Below, in pieces: positions 50,266 to 64,000 of a stretch of 64,000 nt of DNA. Source of the stretch: Owenia fusiformis (Eukaryota > Annelida > Polychaeta > Sabellida > Oweniidae). The position numbers and the translations under genes are program-made. The notes under the pieces were generated by a model. The model had not been told where the DNA came from. It saw only the letters and a list, made by a program, of their open reading frames with translations, and ran no database searches. The stretch covers positions 20,135,564 through 20,199,563 of the forward strand of contig CAIIXF020000007.1 in the NCBI GenBank assembly GCA_903813345.2, given 5' to 3'. Position 1 is the first letter of the stretch. Every line of letters begins with the position of its first letter.

Positions 50266-53200
50266 CTAAAATTAATGAAATATTTATATCATGAAAATAC
50301 AATGCCGAAAATACAATACAATTTACTATGCCGATAGTGTTATTAAGTTAACAAAGGCATACTTTTGTATTTATATCAATATCAAGGAAAATGAAATAAA
50401 TTGAAAAAAAAATGAAAATACAATTGAAAGAGAACCAAGCGTAACAGATAATATTGATAATAGATTCAATTAGTAACTTCTGAGCTTTATATAGTAATGT
50501 AATTTTAAGAAAGCTGACTCAATAATCTATACATTTGAGAAGAACAATAGTCACATTTTTAGAGCCGAATATGTTTGAAAGATGCAGAATGGCTGCCAAA
50601 GAAATCAAAAACAAGTAACAGAGTTTGTCAAGTACACCTGCAGTTGTCCTTCCAGATAACCCAAAATCAATACTGAGGCAATCAATACTTTAGGCTATGA
50701 GCTCCCAGGGTGTACCCAGCAAGCCATCAATCACGAATCAAAGTTGAAGCAATGAGTAGGGGATGAGGTGTGGTGGAAAATAAATGGAAGGAAAGAAGGG
50801 AGTGAGAGTTCATCCTGTATCTGTACTAAAAACCATAGCCAATCAATAGAGATAATAGAGATTGGGTGTTTGGCAAAAGGATGGAAATGAGATGAGAGCC
50901 TTATCCTAAAGGGAAACAATCTGAGAACTGATGTGCTACTTATCTATGACATCACACAGCCTCATCTACATGTAAATCAACTGACCAACCAATGCATGTG
51001 TATGAAATCATTATAAAACAGTTATAAATTAGGTTTATTTTATTTCATTTCTATAAAGCATATTCATGGTATAATTTTTTAGGTTTGGCCCCATCATTTC
51101 TATCAAGCTCAACAGAACTTAAGCAAAGCAATTTCTGCAAGCTTCCATACATATTGCACAGAAAATAAAGCTACTAGATTATTAAAATCTTTTTAAATTT
51201 TGGAAACTACATCTTATACAGATGGATGGATGGTCTGACTGACTTACAGAGGAGTTCCATAGGAAAAAATCATTCTTTAAGTGATACTGTATAAATTATT
51301 TTGCAATGTGTAAAAAAAACACATGACACAATGAATTGTGAATGATTTACACTGTTCCACAGCTGGATGACTCTAACTGCAGTTAGCTTCATTCAAGATG
51401 GTTGCCGAAACTCTTTCTTTTTCGATAAGCCTCCCATTTCAGCTAAACTAAGTTGAATCTTGATTCTCTAACAACCGCGATATTAGAGAATTTTGAAGAA
51501 AATGGCTTCACTTAGAATTACTCTAACTGAAGTCGATGATGATGTAATGATGACGTGGATCATCAACTTCATTTAGAGCCATTCTTAGTTTTTTTTAAAT
51601 TCTCTAATATTGCAGGTGACTGAGCATTCATTTGTGGTTGAATACAATCTTAGTTTTATCAATTTGCACGGCGAAACTTTAGGAATCAAGATTCAGCTTA
51701 GTTTAGCTGAAATAGGAAGTTTATCCAAAACCAAAGAATCTCGGCAACCATCTTGAATGAAGCTAACTGCAGTTATAGTCATCCAGCTGTGGAACAGTGA
51801 TGGTGGTTTGTTTCCTAGACTTTGCATCGATGCAACACAAGTTATGCATTGTTGAATCATCCTACAAAGCATGAGTCCTGGGTTTAAATCCTTCAGCACT
51901 AACCATTAAATCCTGCAAAAGCACCTGGCTTGTTATTCCCTATGATACTATTTATAGATTTTCACTGAACAATGAAAGTCATCAGTTTCACGAGAATCTA
52001 TAAATAGACAGGGTGCTTTAGAGTGGATGCATGGTTGATTATTCAATGCATTGCAATTAGATGAAATGCTTTTTCTGATGGCTGGAATCAGACACATCTT
52101 GCCCTGCTACCAGTGAGAATCAGTATATATGCAATAATAAAGTCACCATGACCTTCCCCTAGTCATAGTGCTATCAATCTTGCAAAATAGTATAATAGAA
52201 CACTATAAAGTGAAAGCATTATCCAGGTGTAAATTTGTCAGAACACAATAACATACCAGTGGTACCTATTTTACATTTTAAATATTAATGAAAACCTTTA
52301 TACTGCAATGTATACAGTATTTGCTGTCAGGCACTGATGTGCGTTTCTTAAACCATAAAGCAAGCAACCCACATTACCTAAGTTACCAAGTGTTCTAGAT
52401 TTGATATAGAAGGTCCTTCAAAGAATACTCAAAAAATAATTAGTCTATTCATTAAACTTGAGCACTACCCATATTTCTGATACATGTAGTCGTTTCTTTT
52501 ATGGTAATGGGTGGTCTGTGACTCAATGACCTGCCATGATAATTCAGTATATGGTAAGCACCTAAAGAATAAATCTTAGGCAACATCATTTATGGCTTAT
52601 ATACATAAGGGCGCCCATCGCCCAGTGTTTCACCCACAGCTTGTACGAGTATGTACCCCCCTTCCAGAAATGTTTGTACAATCTTATCCATTGTTTCAAG
52701 ATAGACATAAATCTTTTCAAATATATTTTTATTGAGATTTCAAGGATGGTGGATGGTTAGTAATGTCTAGTTTTGTTCAGGTAGTAATAGATAGAGGGCC
52801 CCATGGCACTAAAACATAGACTCCCATACACGTACACACACATTACAGACAGAAAGCGGTGAATTATAGCATTTATTATGGAATTATATTTTCAACATTT
52901 TATACTGCATTCAAACTTCCTTCATACATCAACATACAAAAATCCTTATACATATTGCACATATATGATATATAATGCTTAAAAATATGTAAAATGTACA
53001 TAGTATTTTCCATATAAGGCCTAGGTATTTGTTTTGCTTTGGATATTGGCAATATTGAAGCTAGCTATGTAAATGATTTATAGCTGGTTAAAGGAACACT
53101 GTCTTTTTCATTCAGGCCTGAACTCAATTTTCTCCACAATATAACTTATATGTTCACATCATCTTCTAGGCTCATCAAAAATACAGCCTACTAAATCATA

Positions 53201-56200
53201 TTAGTGATATGTTCATGTTCATGCGGTACAAACTTCGACCGTTAATTTAAATTTTTGACCTACCAGGTGTTTGAAAACCAAGGATTGCATGTCTAATACT
53301 GCACCATTTTTCTTCAAACTTGTTCCATTCAAAGCATAACAAAAATGCCTTTCTGTTGGTACATTATTCTGCAATACAGAGTCCCTACTTTCAGCGGCAT
53401 TTGGGTCCCCAGCTGTGAGAAGGGCTTCTCACAACTGGGGACCAAAACGCTGCTAAAACGAGCGACTCCTTTCAATAAAGCAATGTACCAACAGAAAGGC
53501 CTGGTAGGTCAAAAATTTAAATTAACGGTCGAAGTTTGTACCGCGTGATGTTGGGTATAAATCAATACATACAGACATAACCACTTTAATTTATCACAGA
53601 TTTCAATGGAATGAAAACAAGCACACAGAAGGACATCAAAACAGTTTGTGTCCATGTGATATATGTGCAAAACAGCTGTATAAAGAAACCATTAAATAAT
53701 TTGTTAACCCTATCTACAATGTACATAAATGCTGAAATGAATGAAATAGATAATTCTCAACCAAATAATGATCAAGATAATCATGGCTTGTCGCAAATGA
53801 TTCCAAAATGAGGTGACAGAGCAAGTAACTTAAATATGAGTTTGTTTGTAATTTGGTGAATTCGGTGGATTTGAAAATGTGCCATATTAAGCCTCCATCA
53901 AAATCTTTGGGAATAAAAATAAACATGTATGACATAAATACCATTTTCGGATACTCAGACTTCAAAGATGAGAAACAATACATCAGTAGTATAATATTTC
54001 ATCAGAGGACCTAAATATGAGTTCTATGAATTTTATGAAGAGCACATCTGTGATTTCAATTGTCTGGAGGTTATGGTCTAATACTACATACATGTATGTT
54101 CTTTTTGTCAGTGCACTAAAATTCCCTAAATTATGTATGTGCAAACATTTATATATTTAGATCAAAATCTATTTGCTCCAGAGTATTTCACTATTCATTT
54201 TATTCCATCATTTTCCATACTTTTCCAGAGGATCATTTTTAAAGTCAGGTGTGGCTATATGGCCATTGTCTATGGAAGATGTTTCAGCTGAAGAGTTTTC
54301 AGGACTTGTTTGTTCAGTGAGCTGATGGGTATCTATATCGTTGGAGTCTGATTGGAGCTCATAGTTTATGGCTAAAGCTGCAGGACAGCACTGTAACATA
54401 ACAAACCACAGCTTAGCTTATATCTTACATATCAGATCTTATACCGTACTTCCAGTATTTTTCAAACTTATCACAATTGTGGAAAAATTGCGAAAAATAA
54501 TCGTCAAAAAAAAATTGTTCTCAAAATTCGTGAATTTAAAATTTGTGTTTACAGGGAGTAGAGTATAAGTCTTATAATATACAAATAATGCTTAACTAAA
54601 AATATTATATATAAGATCTAATATCAACTATTGAATAATGCTTAACTAAATAGTTTATGCATGAATGCTTTTTCTTTGGATCAATATAAAATCTTATAAG
54701 AGTAATTAATACTTGACGCTAAGCGAAAATTAATATCAAGGGGAAAGGGATATGCAACATAACATAAGTTACAAAAATCAATTTGAAGCCTTAATCATCA
54801 TATGTAATGTACATTGGGAATGTTTCACAAGGAAGCTTGACAAAGTCATATTCATTTTTCTTATTTAGCCCCATTTCCAAATAAAGCAAAATTGCACTGT
54901 ATAAAAAACAACAACTATGAATGATTTACTTAATTAGATAATAATTTAAATCATGATTTGCATTCATTGATTTGATGGATGGACAGCTCAGTGGTGGATT
55001 TGAATAAGTAATACAGTTCATTGGCTAGGAAGTACATATACATTACTCTCTTACCAAAAGAATCAATCGTTTAAATGTTCTACGTGTTACCAATCATTAA
55101 GATGCTAACAAGGCCAAGACAAATGTTCTGATTGTTCTAGCCAACATGTATAGAAACTTATGTTGCTGACCAATGGCTTGACAAGGTTCAGGAATTTATA
55201 ATTTATATAAAGAGTGTAAGAGAAGCTCTCAAGTTAAAGATGACTTAATAATTCTGAAATGTTCCTTTTCTAAGATTGCACATAGATGGCAGCATCTTGC
55301 TAAGTGCAAGTGGTCTGAAAATTACAACAGTGAATAAAAAAGGCTAAACTATATGACATAGGTAGTGTGTGATAGATCTGTCTACTGTATCTATGCATAG
55401 AGTTAAATAGAGTGATCAATGCACTGCATATTAGCCTATATGAATATCTGAGATATTTTACTCAGCAACAAGTAACCATTGTTAGGAAAACACATAAGAA
55501 TAACTTACCGTAGAGACAGCTAACTTTCTTGCCCCCAGGGTCACTAGGCACACCCATGTCTGTAAAGTGAATAGTATCACATCTAGTAGTTACATATGGA
55601 ACCTTGGGGGGGGATACCAGAGAATATGACATACTGTAAGGGGAGACAAGAGACTGAGCCACTTTCTAAAAGGTAATTATGTGTTGTCATCAAGTTAATA
55701 ACATGCTTCAAACTATTATTAGAATACTCTACATTCATCAAATCTTATTGGGGGGCCCTTATTTGGATATATAAGAATCTACATGTACAGAGAGATTGTA
55801 GCTACTAAGTTTATCCCAAGGGAATATGTGTATATCTCCTACAGGACCACATGACTGAGAAAGGGAAATACATATTTCCTGAAGGATAAACCTGAGTTGT
55901 AACTAGAACCATGGACATATATAATATACGTCCATGCTAGAACCAACCATACATAACAGATGTATCCATAGAATACCTTGTTCAAAGTATCAAACAATTA
56001 AGAGTGGAGCGAGAAGGAGTAAGAACAGATTGAGCATACCAGGATAATTTTCACTTTCTATTCATGTTTAAAACTATCTATAATTTGCCAATAAAATTAC
56101 TAATCTAACAATGTGTTTGTACACATACAATCATACATGTACAAATATTCTGTATGAAGAAAAATATTCCATACATCTTTGTATAAATACCTGTAATGGC

Positions 56201-57224
56201 TATATTTTAGTAGTAATGTTATTAAGTTAACATTGGCATATGTCTATATTTTAGTAGTAATGTTTATTAAGTTAACATTGGCATATGTCTATATTTTTGT
56301 AGTAATGTTATTAAAATAACATTGGCATATGTCTATATTTTAGTAGTAATGCTATTAAGTTAACATTGACATATGTCTATATTTTAGTAGTAATGTTATT
56401 AAGTTAACATTGGCATATGTCTATATTTTAGTAGTAATGTTATTAAGTTAACTTTAGTAGTAATGTTATTAAGTTAACATTGGCATATGTCTATATTTTA
56501 GTAGTAATGTTATTAAGTTAACATTGGCATATGTCTATATTTTAGTAGTAATGTTATTACGTTACATTGGCATATGTCTATATTTTAGTAGTAATGTTAT
56601 TACGTTACATTGACATTTGTCTATATATTTGAAGTAATGTTATTAGGTTAACAGTGGCATTTGTTTTCACATGTATATAAATAATTCAGTATTGAACAGA
56701 AAAATCAAAGTCATATCTAATTCTCTCTTGGTACATCTGATATATCGTCCTTGCTATCAGGACACAATCATCAAAGCAGCTGGGTGCAAACAAAGCTGAC
56801 ATAATTTCCCGATTTGCCAATAATTATGGTCGAATCGGACCCCTTAATATTCAAGCATTTCACATTATTTTATAGAACGGGTCAAGGTGTCAGGTGAGTT
56901 GCACATTGGACAAACTCTATTTACGTGTGGTTCTGAGTAACGCCCAACATCTTCACCTACTAGAAGACATATCAACTTGCATTTATATATCATTTCTGGC
57001 TTATATTTGCAAAATTGGAACCATATATAATAGGTGATCGGGTGAAATGTGAAACATTACTTACTAAATATCCTATGAAGAGTAGATACAATAGAAGTGC
57101 AATAGCAATGAAGAGATACAGGGCCCAGTGCTTCACAGGCATGTCACGTATATACACAGCAGCAAAGTACATGTTAATGGCTAGGACAGCTATAGTCAGG
57201 AGTATTGTCACTATCTTTGATGGC
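50053..57224 (-). CDS. SLC11/NRAMP-type divalent metal transporter, 3' part
   Basis: The minus strand carries the 3' exons: 57224-57065 (53 codons plus one base), 55559-55509 (17 codons), then a choice of terminal exon, 54390-54208 or 50265-50053. The first encodes the last two membrane segments: KIVTILLTIAVLAINMYFAA, VYIRDMPVKHWALYLF, LLYLLFIGYL. The second adds TWVCLVTLGARKLAVST. The order INMYF-x-x-VY-x-RD and YL-x-W-x-C-L-x-x-LG matches the C-terminal end of vertebrate SLC11A2/NRAMP. The family moves Fe2+/Mn2+ with protons across endosomal or plasma membrane. Donor GTAAGTAATG and acceptors GTGTATTTCAG, CACTTTACAG are good and all joins are in phase. No exon for earlier segments was found up to 64000; they may lie beyond, leaving the Cys-rich gene nested, or the locus may be a partial copy. 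Confidence 0.8.
50270..51349. other. Intron DNA of the NRAMP-type gene
   Basis: AT-rich DNA between the two alternative terminal exons. I see no further exon. The two palindromic elements in this long intron are listed separately. Confidence 0.4.
51350..51799. mobile_element. 450-bp palindromic MITE
   Basis: The ends are long inverted repeats: CACTGTTCCACAGCTGGATG at the left and CATCCAGCTGTGGAACAGTG at the right, continuing with CTGCAGTTAGCTTCATTC and CAAGATGGTTGCCGA on both sides. A second inner pair (AGCTAAACTAAG / CTTAGTTTAGCT) and a third (ATTAGAGAATTT / AAATTCTCTAAT) continue towards the centre. No coding sequence. The CACTG terminus recalls CACTA-type ends, but the flanks show no clear 3-bp duplication. 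Confidence 0.75.
53223..53544. mobile_element. 322-bp palindromic MITE
   Basis: GCGGTACAAACTTCGACCGT, TAATTTAAATTTTTGACCTA and CCAGG at the left are matched perfectly, inverted, at the right end (about 45 bp). Inner arms CCTTTCTGTTGGTACATT / AATGTACCAACAGAAAGG and GGTCCCCAGCTGTGAGAAG / CTTCTCACAACTGGGGACC continue the symmetry. The near-perfect arms imply a recent insertion in the NRAMP intron. Confidence 0.75.
54208..54390 (-). CDS. Alternative terminal exon B of the NRAMP-type gene
   Basis: After the acceptor TTATGTTACAG, 60 codons run to a TGA at 54208-54210. The tail starts CCPAALAINYELQSDSND and is Ser/Thr/Glu-rich and hydrophilic, as expected of a cytosolic C-terminus. It joins in phase 0 to the 17-codon exon at 55509-55559. 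An AATAAA lies only a few bases after the stop, so the 3' UTR is very short. It is nearer to the membrane exon than exon C, so using exon C requires skipping this polyadenylation site. Confidence 0.65.
   Translation of the reverse strand, partial: CCPAALAINYELQSDSNDIDTHQLTEQTSPENSSAETSSIDNGHIATPDFKNDPLEKYGK
56201..56655. repeat. 44-bp AT-rich minisatellite
   Basis: About ten units of TAGTAGTAATGTTATTAAGT + TAACATTGGCATATGTCTAT + ATTT, one of them truncated (near 56452) and the last ones more diverged (TTACGTTACATT). It lies in the intron between the NRAMP membrane exon and the 17-codon exon. Confidence 0.85.
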
Positions 57225-57693
57225 CTGAAATACACAATGGAGATTTACAATGGGATTGCAGAGAATGGCATGCCTTGTACATACACAGCAGCAAAGTTCA
57301 TGTTAATGGCTAGGGCAGCTATAGTCAGGAGTATTGTCACTATCTTTGATGGCCTGAAATACACAATGGAGATTTACAATGGGAGTGCAGAGAATGGCAT
57401 GTCTTGTACATGCACAGCAGCAAAGTTCATGTTAATGGCTAGGACAGCTATAGTCAAAAGTATTGTCACTATCTTTGATGGCCTGAAATACACAATGAAG
57501 ATTTACAATGGGAGTGCAGAGAATGGCATGTCTTGTACATACACAGCAGCAAAGTTCATGTTAATGGCTAGGACAGCTATAGTCAAAAGTATTGTCACTA
57601 TCTTTGATGGCCTGAAATACACAATGGAGATTTACAATGGGAGTGCAGAGAATGGCATATCTTGTACATGCAGAGCAGCAAAGTACATGTTAA

Positions 57694-58285
57694 AGTGTCT
57701 TTCTAAGACTTAGAAGGAGAAATTTGAGATTTCGAGCCATATGTCTCAAGAAAATGCTCTTACCTTTCTAGTAGGATGAGTTCAGGTGCCAAAAACAGCT
57801 GATCAAAGGATATATATCATTTTCTAATTGAAAATTTTTGTTGAGCCCTGCATTTTTAACACTGTTTTGACAGGAAGTCATACCCAAAATGAAAACTGAA
57901 TAAAACAACATTTATCCTAAATGTACATCAAAATACTTACTCAGACATGCAAAATGTTATTATTAGTAGTAATGCTGATCATTTTTAAGAAATTTAAGCA
58001 TGTAAATAAGACTTTTTTCGTCCATAATTATATACATAAAGAATTTCTTCCCTCAGAAAGCTCTGGCACTGTGGTGTAGTGGTTAGAGCATTGGGCTCTA
58101 CCAGAATTTTATTCCAAGAGATCTGGGTTCAAATCCCAAGGGTGGAATATGTTTTTATTCTTTATTTTTGTTTTTTTTCATTTTGATCCACAATATTTCT
58201 AAAATAAATTTTTATATATGGCACTCAAACCATATTTAGTATTTCCAAGGGTTTTAATTTTTAGATGAAATGATAGAAAGTTACT
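57694..58285. mobile_element. 592-bp insertion with TTAA duplication
   Basis: It interrupts a repeat unit: the unit's TTAA appears at 57690-57693 and again at 58286-58289, and removing the insertion restores the 129-bp register exactly. The ends are imperfect inverted repeats (AGTGTCTTTCTAAGACTT at the left; AGTAACTTTCTATCATTT as complement of the right). TTAA is the piggyBac target site, although the ends do not start with the usual CCC; a 3-bp TAA (Harbinger type) is an alternative. Contains a tRNA-like segment. Confidence 0.7.
58065..58146 (+). repeat. tRNA-like (SINE head) sequence
   Basis: TGGTGTAGTGG (A box, perfect to TRGYNNARNGG) and GGTTCAAATCC (B box, perfect) are spaced 53 bp start to start, as in a tRNA gene. 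The T stem forms (TGGG/CCCA). The acceptor stem (GGCACTG with AGGGTGG) does not pair and the anticodon arm is poor, so this is probably a tRNA-derived repeat and not a working tRNA. Confidence 0.6.
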
Positions 58286-58840
58286 TTAATGGCTAGGACA
58301 GCTACAGTCAGGAGTATTGTCACTATCTTTGATGGCCTGAAATACACAATGGAGATTTACAATGGGAGTGCAGAGAATGGCATATCTTGTACATGCAGAG
58401 CAGCAAAGTACATGTTAATGGCTAGGACAGCTATAGTCAGGAGTATTGTCACTATCTTTGATGGCCTGAAATACACAATGGAGATTTACAATCGGAGTGC
58501 AGAGAATGGCATGTCTTGTACATGCACAGCAGCAAAGTTCATGTTAATGGCTAGGACAGCTACAGTCAGGAGTATTGTCACTATCTTTGATGGCCTGAAA
58601 TACACAATGAAGTTTTACAATGGGAGTGCAGAGAATGGCATATCTTGTACATACACAGCAGCAAAGTTCATGTTAATGGCTAGGACAGCTACAGTCAGGA
58701 GTATTGTCACTATCTTTGATGGCCTGAAATACACAATGGAGATTTACAATGGGAGTGCAGAGAATGGCATATCTTGTACATACACAGCAGCAAAGTTCAT
58801 GTTAATGGCTAGGACAGCTATGGTCAGGAGTATTGTCACT

Positions 58841-59299
58841 GGAGAGGTTAAGCTTTGCATATAGAAACTGAACCTGTACGTATCACTCGACCATATACAA
58901 ATTCATGTAGCCTTCTCATATAAATAGCCGTTCAAATCCAGTGTTTGTTTAGACTACACCATAGCGTGTAATGATTCTATAGTATGTCATTGATGCGGTT
59001 TTATAGCTGGTTTTCTAATACATATTTTAAACGAGCTCGTTTCGTAAGATTTTTGGCGCTAAATCATGCATGACATACATCATTGTGTTCAGCAAGAATT
59101 CAACTGTGCATCAAAATCAAAATTGACAGCATAGTGTTCAATAGACACGAGTAAAATGGTTCCCGTTGACCCAACGTCAAATTTCAAATCTCCCGTTCTA
59201 AACCCAAAACTCTGAAGCTGAAAGAGTATCTGAAGTAGACTAAGCGCGCATAAAACTATGAGCGCTCGATATGAAAAACATCGTCAGCTTAACCTCTCC
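58841..59299. mobile_element. 459-bp MITE with ACT duplication
   Basis: Inverted ends GGAGAGGTTAAGCT at the left and AGCTTAACCTCTCC at the right (14 bp, perfect). ACT precedes the left end (58838-58840) and follows the right end (59300-59302), while an uninterrupted unit has a single ACT there. Removing the element and one ACT restores the 129-bp period. The 3-bp duplication fits Harbinger- or CACTA-like elements. No coding sequence. Confidence 0.8.
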
Positions 59300-59550
59300 A
59301 CTATCTTTGATGGCCTGAAATACACAATGGAGATTTACAATGGGAGTGCAGAGAATTGCATGTCTTGTACATACACAGCAGCAAAGTACATATTAATGGC
59401 TAGGACAGCTATAGTCAAGAGTATTGTCACTATCTTTGATGGCCTGAAATACACAATGGAGATTTACAATGGGAGTGCAGAGAATAACATGTCTTGTACA
59501 TACACAGCAGCAAAGTTCATGTTAATGGCTAGGACAGCTATAGTCAGGAG

Positions 59551-60214
59551 GGTAACTGGTCAACTCGTACCCAAGACAAGTCGTACCCAAGACAACTGGT
59601 ACCCAAGACAACTCGTACCCAAGTATATATTTTGTTTTGAATCAAGCGTTGGACTGGGAATGTGAATAGATATATACATATTATAATTGTAACATACTGT
59701 TCAGAATAGTTTAAAGTTTGAAGAAGAATTTTCGGAAGAAATTGATTTAATTTTGTGACATTTTGAACTGGGTGTCAATTTATATTGACTATAATTTTAT
59801 ATTGGTCACAGATTCGGGATGTTGGAGTGAATAGACATATGTTTATTCCACATATTCATAATCATTTTTCAAAATATTGTATGTTTATGAGTGTTTGGAA
59901 CAAGTGTCAGATCTCATGTTGTAATTATATTTATTTATATATATGTTTGACAAAAAAATGTTGAGAACAAGCGCTTCATGCACTTCTTTTATTTAATAAA
60001 AAAAATGCTTTACTGGTCCATTGAGAAAAAATGTCTTCTAAATTCCCCAAAAATATTGAGGCTTATTTGATTCACATCATAACATGAAAGCATTACAAAC
60101 TCAATTTTTCCCTAATATGCACCCATAATACTGAAAATAATCTTGGGTACGAGTTGTCTTGGGTACCAGTTGTCTTGGGTACGAGTTGTCTTGGGTACGA
60201 GTTGACTAGGAAGC
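59551..60214. mobile_element. 664-bp hAT-like element with 8-bp duplication
   Basis: Flanked by GTCAGGAG on both sides (59543-59550 and 60215-60222), present once in intact units. Ends: GGTAACTGGTCAACTCGTAC at the left, GTACGAGTTGACTAGGAAGC at the right, inverted apart from the outermost bases. Next to each end a 20-bp word, ACTCGTACCCAAGACA with ACTGG variants, is repeated about four times in mirrored orientation. 8-bp duplications are typical of hAT elements. No transposase. Confidence 0.8.
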
Positions 60215-60513
60215 GTCAGGAGTATTGTCACTATCTTTGATGGCCTGAAATACACAATGGAGATTTACAATGGGAGTGCAGAGAATGGCATGTCTTGTAC
60301 ATGGACAGCAGCAAAGTTCATGTTAATGGCTAGGACAGCTATAGTCAAAAGTATTGTCACTATCTTTGATGGCCTGAAATACACAATGAAGATTTACAAT
60401 GGGAGTGCAGAGAATGGCATGTCTTGTACATACACAGCAGCAAATTTCATGTTAATGGCTAGGACAGCTATAGTCAGGAGTATTGTCACTATCTCTGATG
60501 GCATGAAATACAC

Positions 60514-62126
60514 AATGAAGATTGAAATCTTAAGTCAGATTTGAAATTTTGAGAACTTGTAGATGATTTTGAATAAAAATTGATCAATTTGAAGCAAGTT
60601 GAAAAATACCTTTTTGATGTTTTTTTTACTTTGAGAGGGTCATTATAAAGAAAGGTCAAATCTAAAGTCAGATTTTAACTTCTGAGAACTTGTTGATGAT
60701 TTTAGAAAGAATTTGGTCAATTTGTAACAAGTTGAAAAATAACCTTTTCGACCTTTTTGACATTGAGAAGGTCCTTGAAGGTCAAATCTCAAATCTAAAG
60801 TCAGATTTGAACTACTGAAAATTTGTAGATGATTTTGGAAAAATTTGAAGTCAGTCTAAACTATATTTGTTAAGTCATTGGAAGATTTTAGAATTTGTTA
60901 CAGAGGCCAGATACCCAACGCCAACCACCTACCGCCATCTCAAAAATGGAGACCATAACAATATGTCACCACTTCTGGTGGTGACATAAAAATCAAAAGG
61001 AGATGGCTTCATGCTTGTCTGGGTGGCATGTTTTGGCTATCTTGGAGGCAAGAAGGTCAAATGGTCAATTGTTTACCAGTTATTCTACAAAGTCTATTAT
61101 AGATCTACATGACCTTCAAACTTCAATGACATTTTAAAGGGCCTACTCAAAATTGCCAAACACAATTTAACTGACAACGTACATGTAGTCTGCACCATGT
61201 TTACTTTGAAAATACATGTAAATGTCAATCTGTGCTGATATATTTTGATCTGTGCATTCCGGAAGTTTATCTACTAATCAGGTCATTAAACTTCGGCAAT
61301 TGTTTTGCCAGAATTTATTTTATTGCAAATAACATCTCTGTGTTGACAAATTAATTTTCTTTGCATTGTATCGAATTTCAGAAAATATTGGCAGCCAATC
61401 ATGCATTAGAATAGAACTAAAGGATTATGAAGGGATTATGAAGGTATCTAATATTATTTATTTAGTCAGAACTTCAAAATTATATTACAAATGATTTAAA
61501 AACATGACACTAGCTATGAATATATAAGGTAAGTATTATTGTTTTCCTTCATTATCTTGAGATTCGGAAGTAAGTGATTTTACCATTTACAACTAGCTAT
61601 ATTTCGCTTATATTAATGCAAAAAGTGGATAAAGGAGAAGTTTCGCAGAAAACAGTCATGGAGTCAAGAATCTGGTGCAGTTAATGAGTGACATGGTGTC
61701 AGGTTGACTTAGGTCTAATATCTATACCGTATTTATATTTGAAGCTGAAGGGGTGAAATCATTGAAACTCATTTAAGATGTTCACTGGACAAACAATATA
61801 AACTATATATTTCTTTGATCATATACATATAAGGTTTAATCATAACGTGTTATAAGAGATGAAAGAAAAATGTAACTAAGTAGTTAGTAAACTTGATATA
61901 ATTGTACTGGGAAAAATAATATTTTAGTATCAGAAATCTACTTAGAGATATACGGAGATTCCTGTCATGCACTGCACAATTGGCCTATAGCAGTCATAAC
62001 TCTGCAATTCAAAGCTTTTACGTTCTCACAATTTAGAAAACTGTACCATGCTTAACTATTTATATATTACTATTTTGTTTGTTGTTTCTAGGTTCATCTT
62101 AGTCTTATTGTGACTCTCCAGACAAC
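60514..62126. other. Gene-free stretch upstream of the Cys-rich gene
   Basis: The first 380 bp hold three imperfect copies of a roughly 110-bp unit (GTCAGATTTGAA, GAACTTGTAGATGATTTTG, CAAGTTGAAAAATA) at 60530-60860. A dispersed repeat lies at 60897-60990. A TATA-like TATTTATATATTA at 62056-62068 sits 60-70 bp before the Cys-rich gene's ATG and is its best promoter candidate. Confidence 0.5.
60897..60990. repeat. Dispersed repeat, third copy with hairpin end
   Basis: TTACAGAGGCCAGATACC, CGCCAACCACCTACCGCC, AATGGAGACCATAACAATAT, then GTCACCACTTCTGGTGGTGA followed by CATAAAAAT. Same family as 21738-21828 and 37547-37664. Confidence 0.65.
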
Positions 62127-63771
62127 ATGGTGGCATTTGTAACAATCCTGTTACTGGCAGTGGGATGTGTTGTGCCTTTTTCACAAGGACTGTATGTTTA
62201 ATCATTGACTTTAATATCATTATGTATTTCATACTTGAGTGGGTTTGGGGTAGATATCACCCGGGAATATATATCATATCTGAGGAGCGGGCAGGACATA
62301 TTGTATATGTCCCGCTCTAGGCCAAATGCGGGCAGATATAATATATCCATCCTGCTCCCGGGAATTTTTTCAAAAGTTTAAAAATTTAAATTTCAGAAGT
62401 TAAAAATTTTTCAAAAAGTTTAAATGTTACAATTCTATTGTATTGACCTGAAGGAATATTATGGAAATGTTAAATATAAATTGTGCTTTTACAGTATAGG
62501 CCTATCTTGTCATTTAAAAAAGGTGGTAAAGGTTATATCTACCCCAAACCCACTCAAGTATGAGATACACCAGTTATGTACGGTCGGTTTTGGATACAGC
62601 AGGAAATATGTGTATCTCCCTCGGTCCCTGCGGTTCCTCTTGAGATATACATATTTCCCTTGGGATAAACCCTGTATCCAAAACCTCCCAGTACATAACC
62701 CTTATATATACAATGGAATAATAATATTTCCCCACTGATTCATAATATTCAAAGTTTTTTTTTTCTCAAGATCCGGACAGTGAATTTTCATAAATATTTC
62801 CTAAACAATTTTCATTTCATGAATGATCACTATTTTTTTGAAAAAGAGAATCTCAATTGTGGAATTTGTTATCTTTCACCTACATTTTTTCGCCACTGAA
62901 GTTCTTCCTTAAAAGTAATAAATATGACTATGTGTCATATGTAGGGACAGGAAAATGTAAAAAAACAGATGGCAAAAGATGTTTTGAACAGACTACCTTT
63001 CCCTAAAAACAGTATATAGTATTGTTAGAGTAATACAGGGTGTTCAGGAAATACTGATTTGTTAATTCTGCAGTTGTCATAGCAAAGCGAGTAGCGCTAA
63101 GGCGGAGCAGGTAGAATAACTGTAGTATACATGTACAAACATATTTTTCATTAGTTATTTCTTTTTTCAGAACTTCAAGGTTTACTTCTGCTTCAAAGTG
63201 TTGGCCTCATATAGAAGGATGCAATCCTGATGAACTATGTTGCAAAGACTCAAAGACTGATGTTAAGTATTGCCTCCCAAGGGGTGAAGCCAGTACTTGC
63301 CTTCAAGCAAGTATAGGGTATGTATGAGTATAGTATAGTGTAGTGAAGTGCAGTATTGTATGAAAATTGGACATTGAAAACCATGTTCAATTAGGTATAA
63401 GTGAAATGGCCTAAGACAGTGCCTTGACTCCGGATGGGACAGTAACATTTGTGCCCTACTTCATTTATTTAAATTAAAAAGAGATGACACTGTTTCATTG
63501 GTGTAAAGTACAAATATCTGAAAAAATAAAATGTGACCACTATTGAATCAAAAGAAACTTTACATTTAAAATATGTTCATATTGTCCTTTTTTATTTTGA
63601 AGGACGAAGATCCGACCAGTTGGCACCATGATATGTCGTTCAAAGGGCAAGCAATGTCCAGGAAGTGACTTATGTTGTATGGACACTATAAACAATGAGT
63701 TTTTCTGTGCCAGTAGCTATCATTATAAGAATCCAGACCTAATATGCATGAGCGCAAGAATCTATAGTTAA
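62127..63771 (+). CDS. Secreted protein of two six-cysteine modules
   Basis: Three exons: 62127-62191, 63171-63317, 63603-63771 (381 nt, 126 residues), GT-AG introns in consistent phase. A clear signal peptide (MVAFVTILLLAVGCVVPFSQ) is followed by two copies of one module: C-x6-C-x5-CC-x9-C-x8-C (KCWPHIEGC, ELCC, YC, TC) and C-x6-C-x5-CC-x9-C-x12-C (ICRSKGKQC, DLCC, FC, IC). Each module is essentially one exon, so the protein arose by exon duplication. Spacing with a central CC recalls inhibitor-cystine-knot and colipase-like folds, but I cannot assign a family or function; secreted hormone, inhibitor and defence roles are all open. The last residues ICMSARIYS follow the final Cys. Intron 1 hosts a dispersed repeat (62222-62713). 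Confidence 0.75.
62222..62713. repeat. Dispersed palindromic repeat, copy 2
   Basis: Full-length match to 16866-17362: ATACTTGAGTGGGTTTGGGG, GAGGAGCGGGCAGGA, CCCTCGGTCCCTGCGGTTCC, AACCTCCCAGTACATAACCC in the same order. Internal arms AGTGGGTTTGGGGTAGATAT / ATATCTACCCCAAACCCACT are perfect here. It sits in intron 1 of the Cys-rich gene. Confidence 0.75.
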
Positions 63772-63916
63772 TACAAATCAAGTGGAGATTAATTTGAAAT
63801 ATTGAGTATTTTATATGTATATATATATTGAGTAGCACATGTACAGTAGATAGATACACAATTAATACTTAGTTGAGACACCTATATATTCATGTAAATT
63901 GGAGTTATGTACTGAG

Positions 63917-64000
63917 AGGTTTTGGATATGGGGTTTATCCTGAGCGAGATGGAGAAATGGCAGGAGATATGGAGGTTTTGGATAAGCTCAAAATCAGGAT
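63917..64000 (-). repeat. Dispersed palindromic repeat, edge copy
   Basis: GAGAGGTTTTGGATATGGGG, TTTATCCTGAGCGAGATGG and GGAGGTTTTGGATA resemble the reverse complement of the right end of the 62222-62713 repeat (ATCCAAAACCTCC). Cut by the window edge. Confidence 0.5.

Follow-up and report, generated by a model that had tools for sequence, protein, structure and literature searches.

Upstream of one of its exons, an NRAMP2-like gene of Owenia fusiformis carries a tandem array of truncated copies of that exon, each with a splice acceptor, and the locus therefore raises the question of whether these copies add something to the transcript, interfere with its splicing or are merely carried in the intron. 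A preliminary description of the 64,000-nucleotide stretch of DNA analysed here (the window) had left three options, namely inert array, splice decoys or optional membrane-segment exons; the anatomy and the intact NRAMP gene behind these options held on analysis, but the optional exons found no support in the sequence. We argue that the array is very probably a near-neutral minisatellite lying across an intron-exon boundary, produced by a founder duplication and unequal exchange, and that splicing normally takes place at its last acceptor.

Nine exons of the host gene were modelled by eye with canonical splice sites, in a model that leaves out the 5' end of the gene. Nramp-family exons are present on the same strand just outside the window (C7:20199733-20205227), and exons 5-9 form a single reading frame up to the stop when the copies are left out. 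The modelled protein matches the NRAMP2 chain 9f6n_A (human-type, solved; E 4.9e-66, query residues 1-180), and NRAMP1 chains are matched also. By the model the array-bearing intron is 6,943 bp long, from C7:20199730 to window position 57225, and is followed in the window by these exons:

57065-57224, minus strand: authentic 160-nt exon for TM11 and the following segment, acceptor ATTGTGTATTTCAG, donor TTA/GTAAGT (in-frame model, 9f6n_A match)
55509-55559, minus strand: next downstream NRAMP exon, 51 nt (gene model)
54208-54390, minus strand: last NRAMP exon, with the stop codon (modelled)

The product of the exon at 57224-57065, PSKIVTILLTIAVLAINMYFAAVYIRDMP..., lines up with the INMYF stretch of NRAMP2, a segment which we take to be TM11. 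As judged from the frame of the modelled exons and the NRAMP2 match, the authentic exon and the gene are intact beside the repeats. The next NRAMP intron holds a second tandem array at window 56196-56664, with a period of about 44 bp and about 11 copies, which makes no contact with an exon. In the C1 NRAMP paralog an intron lies just after VYLQ, inside the region that forms one exon in the C7 gene. The searched stretch of this paralog (C1:40960500-40967500) gave no match to the array unit beyond 11-13 nt and contains a single short 15-bp tandem repeat only.

Tandem Repeats Finder reported the array as four blocks of a 129-bp repeat (57138-57693, 58286-58840, 59299-59550 and 60221-60523) with 95-96% matches. 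When the flanks of the three insertions that separate these blocks were joined by script, each insertion being cut out together with a single copy of the duplicated target site (TTAA, ACT and GTCAGGAG), the repeat was restored exactly and gave exactly 12 full 129-bp units with no indels, from window 60502 down to 57225. In gene sense these units run head to tail and in register directly into the TM11 exon at 57224. The unit corresponds to the exon start over sites 1-87 and, over sites 88-129 (42 bp), to the intron end with its acceptor. Twelve 129-bp copies upstream of the exon, each with about 87 bases of exon start, had been proposed earlier, and both the repeat scan and the joined units bear this out; the single continuous array that had been assumed gave way to one split by three transposable-element-like insertions. 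In gene order the array and its surroundings read as follows:

60525-60993 (end approximate), unstranded: dispersed repeat adjoining the array, with an internal 133-bp tandem core
60503-60523, minus strand: partial unit of 21 bp from the end of the intron part, where the array begins upstream (from the tandem-repeat joining)
60374-60502, minus strand: most upstream full unit, acceptor broken (CAT)
60245-60373, minus strand: unit with CC at the donor
59444-60244, minus strand: unit split by insertion 3 within the cassette, GT donor
59551-60214, unstranded: insertion 3, 664 bp, with a 16-bp repeat in inverted arrays near both ends and the 8-bp target-site duplication GTCAGGAG
59315-59443, minus strand: unit with a complete AG...GT cassette
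58724-59314, minus strand: unit split by insertion 2 within the cassette, GT donor
58841-59299, unstranded: insertion 2, 459 bp, with perfect 14-bp terminal inverted repeats GGAGAGGTTAAGCT and an ACT target-site duplication
58595-58723, minus strand: unit with a complete AG...GT cassette
58466-58594, minus strand: unit with a GC donor
58337-58465, minus strand: unit with a GC donor
57612-58336, minus strand: unit split by insertion 1 within the cassette, GC donor
57694-58285, unstranded: insertion 1, 592 bp, with a TTAA target-site duplication and imperfect terminal inverted repeats (10 of 12)
57483-57611, minus strand: unit with a complete AG...GT cassette
57354-57482, minus strand: unit with GC, not GT, at the donor
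57225-57353, minus strand: exon-adjoining unit with a complete AG...GT cassette, its 3' end being the acceptor of the real exon
57015-57713, 58289-58864, 59258-59665 and 60257-60544, plus strand: antisense open frame through the units

The array was found at this locus only. A 21-bp piece of the intron part of the unit matched 12 times in the window (up to 3 mismatches) against none in any of 100 shuffles, and one unit searched against the whole 498-Mb assembly at E <= 0.001 gave 15 matches, all of them inside the array. This rules out the unit as a dispersed repeat, and no second array locus was found by the search in this assembly, which represents one haplotype. The three insertions, by comparison, are dispersed elements: the left 307 bp of insertion 1 occur in at least 39 other places in the assembly at 98-100% and its right part, from 58000, in at least 39 at 91-98%, while insertion 2 (97-98%) and insertion 3 (91-99%) have at least 39 other places each. 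Since these elements match elsewhere at 91-100%, the array is older than the insertions. Within insertion 1 the stretch 58060-58150 looked tRNA-like by eye; ARAGORN, in its bacterial setting, found no tRNA gene in the insertion.

At the upstream edge, the adjoining dispersed repeat (60525 to about 60993) is found in at least 39 other places in the assembly at 79-84%. In its family the tandem core measures 133 bp and the right end is hairpin-like (GTCACCACTTTTTGGTGGTGAC). A pattern from the usual left part of the family is present in 6 of the 8 copies examined, and a pattern search of window 53000-64000 did not find this left part. Because the left part is missing right at the start of the array, the original upstream flank of the array, and with it the founding breakpoint, has probably been lost; a deletion may have been the cause. 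A blastn-short search (E <= 1) found no further remnant of the array past the flanking repeat in the stretches searched.

The units differ from each other by 4.3% on average, with 20 variable sites across the 12. Over sites 1-55 the exon is identical to the array consensus, from which it departs at sites 56, 74, 78 and 79. The differences at sites 74, 78 and 79 are common to all 12 copies, as would follow from the multiplication of a single founder copy or from changes that the exon underwent afterwards. Only 3 of 12 copies retain the conserved tyrosine codon at site 56, the INMYF tyrosine being replaced by N in eight and by K in one. Among informative pairs of sites 14 of 28 show all four combinations, a mark expected of exchange between units. 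Private variants are most numerous in the unit at the exon-side edge (3), and the unit at the far edge has 2, as do two inner units.

Signs of coding constraint on the copies were sought with the consensus as reference, in tests to which 20 variable sites give low power. Synonymous changes were not in excess, either in the cassette (4 of 10 against about 28% expected, P 0.29) or across sites 2-87 (6 of 17 against 26% expected, P 0.26). The density of variable sites is alike in the cassette (10/69) and the remainder (10/60; P 0.81), and the longest stretch without a variable site, which covers 22 sites around the acceptor, is no longer than chance would readily give (P 0.38). The most variable site of the array is base 71, the second base of the donor (T in seven units, C in five). 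All three insertions fell within cassettes, although their placement alone is not significant, a cassette taking up 69 of the 129 sites. On the opposite strand the unit consensus is free of stops, and open reading frames of 232, 191, 135 and 95 codons pass through the blocks, since a unit length of 129 bp is divisible by three and so leaves the frame open from one copy to the next. Antisense coding was ruled out, as 20 of 21 changes are replacements in a single-change count and the three insertions break the frame.

Each of the 12 units ends with GTGTATTTCAG, and in the last unit this is the acceptor of the real exon. The preliminary description had placed an acceptor in each copy; AG was in fact present in 11 of 12, in each case with 14 letters identical to the real acceptor, and CAT stands before the most upstream copy. 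The GTATGT donor that it had seen in the copies occurs in seven, while four have GCATGT and one CCATGT. Likewise, of the in-frame 69-nt cassette that it had proposed for every unit, the length and the phase stood, and a complete, uninterrupted AG...GT cassette is present in only four copies (59443, 58723, 57611 and 57353). The upstream exon ends in TG/GTAAGT and the TM11 exon begins with G, which completes a W codon, so that a cassette of 69 nt does not shift the frame, as a modelled inclusion also showed; the cassette is free of stops in all 12 copies. Read in the gene frame with the copy donor unused, every unit meets TAA. Against the U1 consensus the donors of the copies match at 3-5 of 9 bases and the eight modelled real donors at 5-8 of 9; the GT copies (5 of 9) thus equal the weakest real donor, and one modelled real donor of the NRAMP2-like gene is itself GTATGT.

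These features bear on two functional readings. If some cassettes were included as optional exons, a 23-residue TM11-like helix would be added and the membrane side of the C-terminus changed. The preserved junction phase, the open cassettes and the four copies with both AG and GT are what such exons would need; however, eight of 12 copies are incomplete, the second donor base is the most variable site, most copies have lost the INMYF tyrosine, there is no excess of synonymous change and an in-frame length arises by chance one time in three, and we consider this reading highly improbable. Its extension, in which the array would serve as a bank of nascent exons, with at least one of the four complete cassettes spliced in to yield NRAMP forms with a further TM11 helix and the C-terminal topology reversed, and with the usable number varying between individuals along with minisatellite length, would be a very long shot. 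It is also very unlikely that the 11 intact extra acceptors compete as decoys with the real one and so lower or regulate NRAMP output. Such an effect is proposed because a transcript that entered a copy and did not use its donor would meet TAA within that unit, and the shared 14 letters of the acceptors agree with it; yet the acceptor shows no higher conservation than other parts of the unit, and for the amphioxus cases of the same anatomy no aberrant mRNA is reported (PMC3902484).

That the array could be an artefact of assembly is close to negligible. Tandem repeats are prone to mis-assembly, and one comparable amphioxus locus is reported as aberrantly assembled in the draft genome (PMC3087553), but here the units differ from each other, and three insertions of different kinds, each with a target-site duplication, interrupt them. 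Even so, the number of copies in the assembly may not be exact.

The passive minisatellite remains by far the best account. One tandem duplication of the intron-exon boundary would have given the founder copy, unequal exchange would then have multiplied and partly homogenised it, and the three dispersed mobile elements inserted later. Because every unit brings an acceptor and an exon start, such an array can grow harmlessly: gain or loss of units would always leave a complete exon at its gene end, and the gene would not be broken. The previous exon would usually be spliced to the last acceptor, which is expected to be favoured since it alone is then followed by a full exon with a GTAAGT donor, and the copies would leave with the intron as near-neutral passengers. 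The variable donor base, the small number of complete cassettes, the insertions within cassettes and the lack of a constraint signal all suggest near-neutrality, and the frame of the gene without the copies, together with the same anatomy in amphioxus, where regular splicing is reported to be undisturbed, argues for passivity. Against this stand the 11 intact acceptors and the donors of the GT copies, which score no lower than the weakest real donor. The absence of indels in 12 units is also a little tidy for neutral DNA and counts a little against the passive reading, its probability being 0.35 to 0.015 for assumed indel-to-substitution ratios of 0.05 to 0.2.

An array grown from an exon-intron junction had been called unusual, and so it is for most genes, but its kind is already published as the 'mirages' of amphioxus, known from Adh3, the globins BflGb6 and BflGb9, TnC and PGBD5 and described as minisatellite-like tandem duplications of an intron-exon boundary (PMC3087553, PMC3902484). 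The BflGb6 units are 150-160 bp long, consist of an intron 3' end and the 5' part of an exon and number 3 or 6; many mirage repeats carry splice signals, exchange between units, length variation and RNA were shown, and regular splicing was reported not to be disturbed (PMC3087553, PMC3902484). The NRAMP array is likewise a set of head-to-tail repeats, 12 of 129 bp, whose unit spans the boundary like that of BflGb6, with 87 bp of exon start and 42 bp of intron end with a CAG acceptor. It differs in its twelve units against 3 or 6, in the gene concerned, in its three mobile-element insertions and in its host, O. fusiformis, and it is known from the DNA of one haplotype, whereas the amphioxus mirages are known from length variation and RNA too. 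A search for mirages that covered mostly open literature gave only these two papers, which are on lancelets or include them.

Intron gain by tandem genomic duplication has also been reported (PMC4974935, PMC2891723). The NRAMP duplication similarly includes splice signals, but here an existing intron was lengthened, and the TM11 exon is continuous, with no new intron in the coding sequence. Dscam-type genes possess tandemly duplicated alternative exons, with exon copies within an intron. The NRAMP intron resembles them in holding tandem copies of exon sequence, but unlike theirs these are truncated exon starts, most of them without both splice sites complete, and coding constraint was not seen in them. 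Taken together, the NRAMP array is a true and tidy case of the mirage kind, and probably a passive one. It shows how an intron can lengthen harmlessly from its own exon edge, since each added unit brings an acceptor and an exon start, and it offers a ready test of how the spliceosome chooses among a dozen identical acceptors. If its host is not a lancelet, boundary-spanning minisatellites would extend beyond the group in which, by the published accounts available, they have been described.
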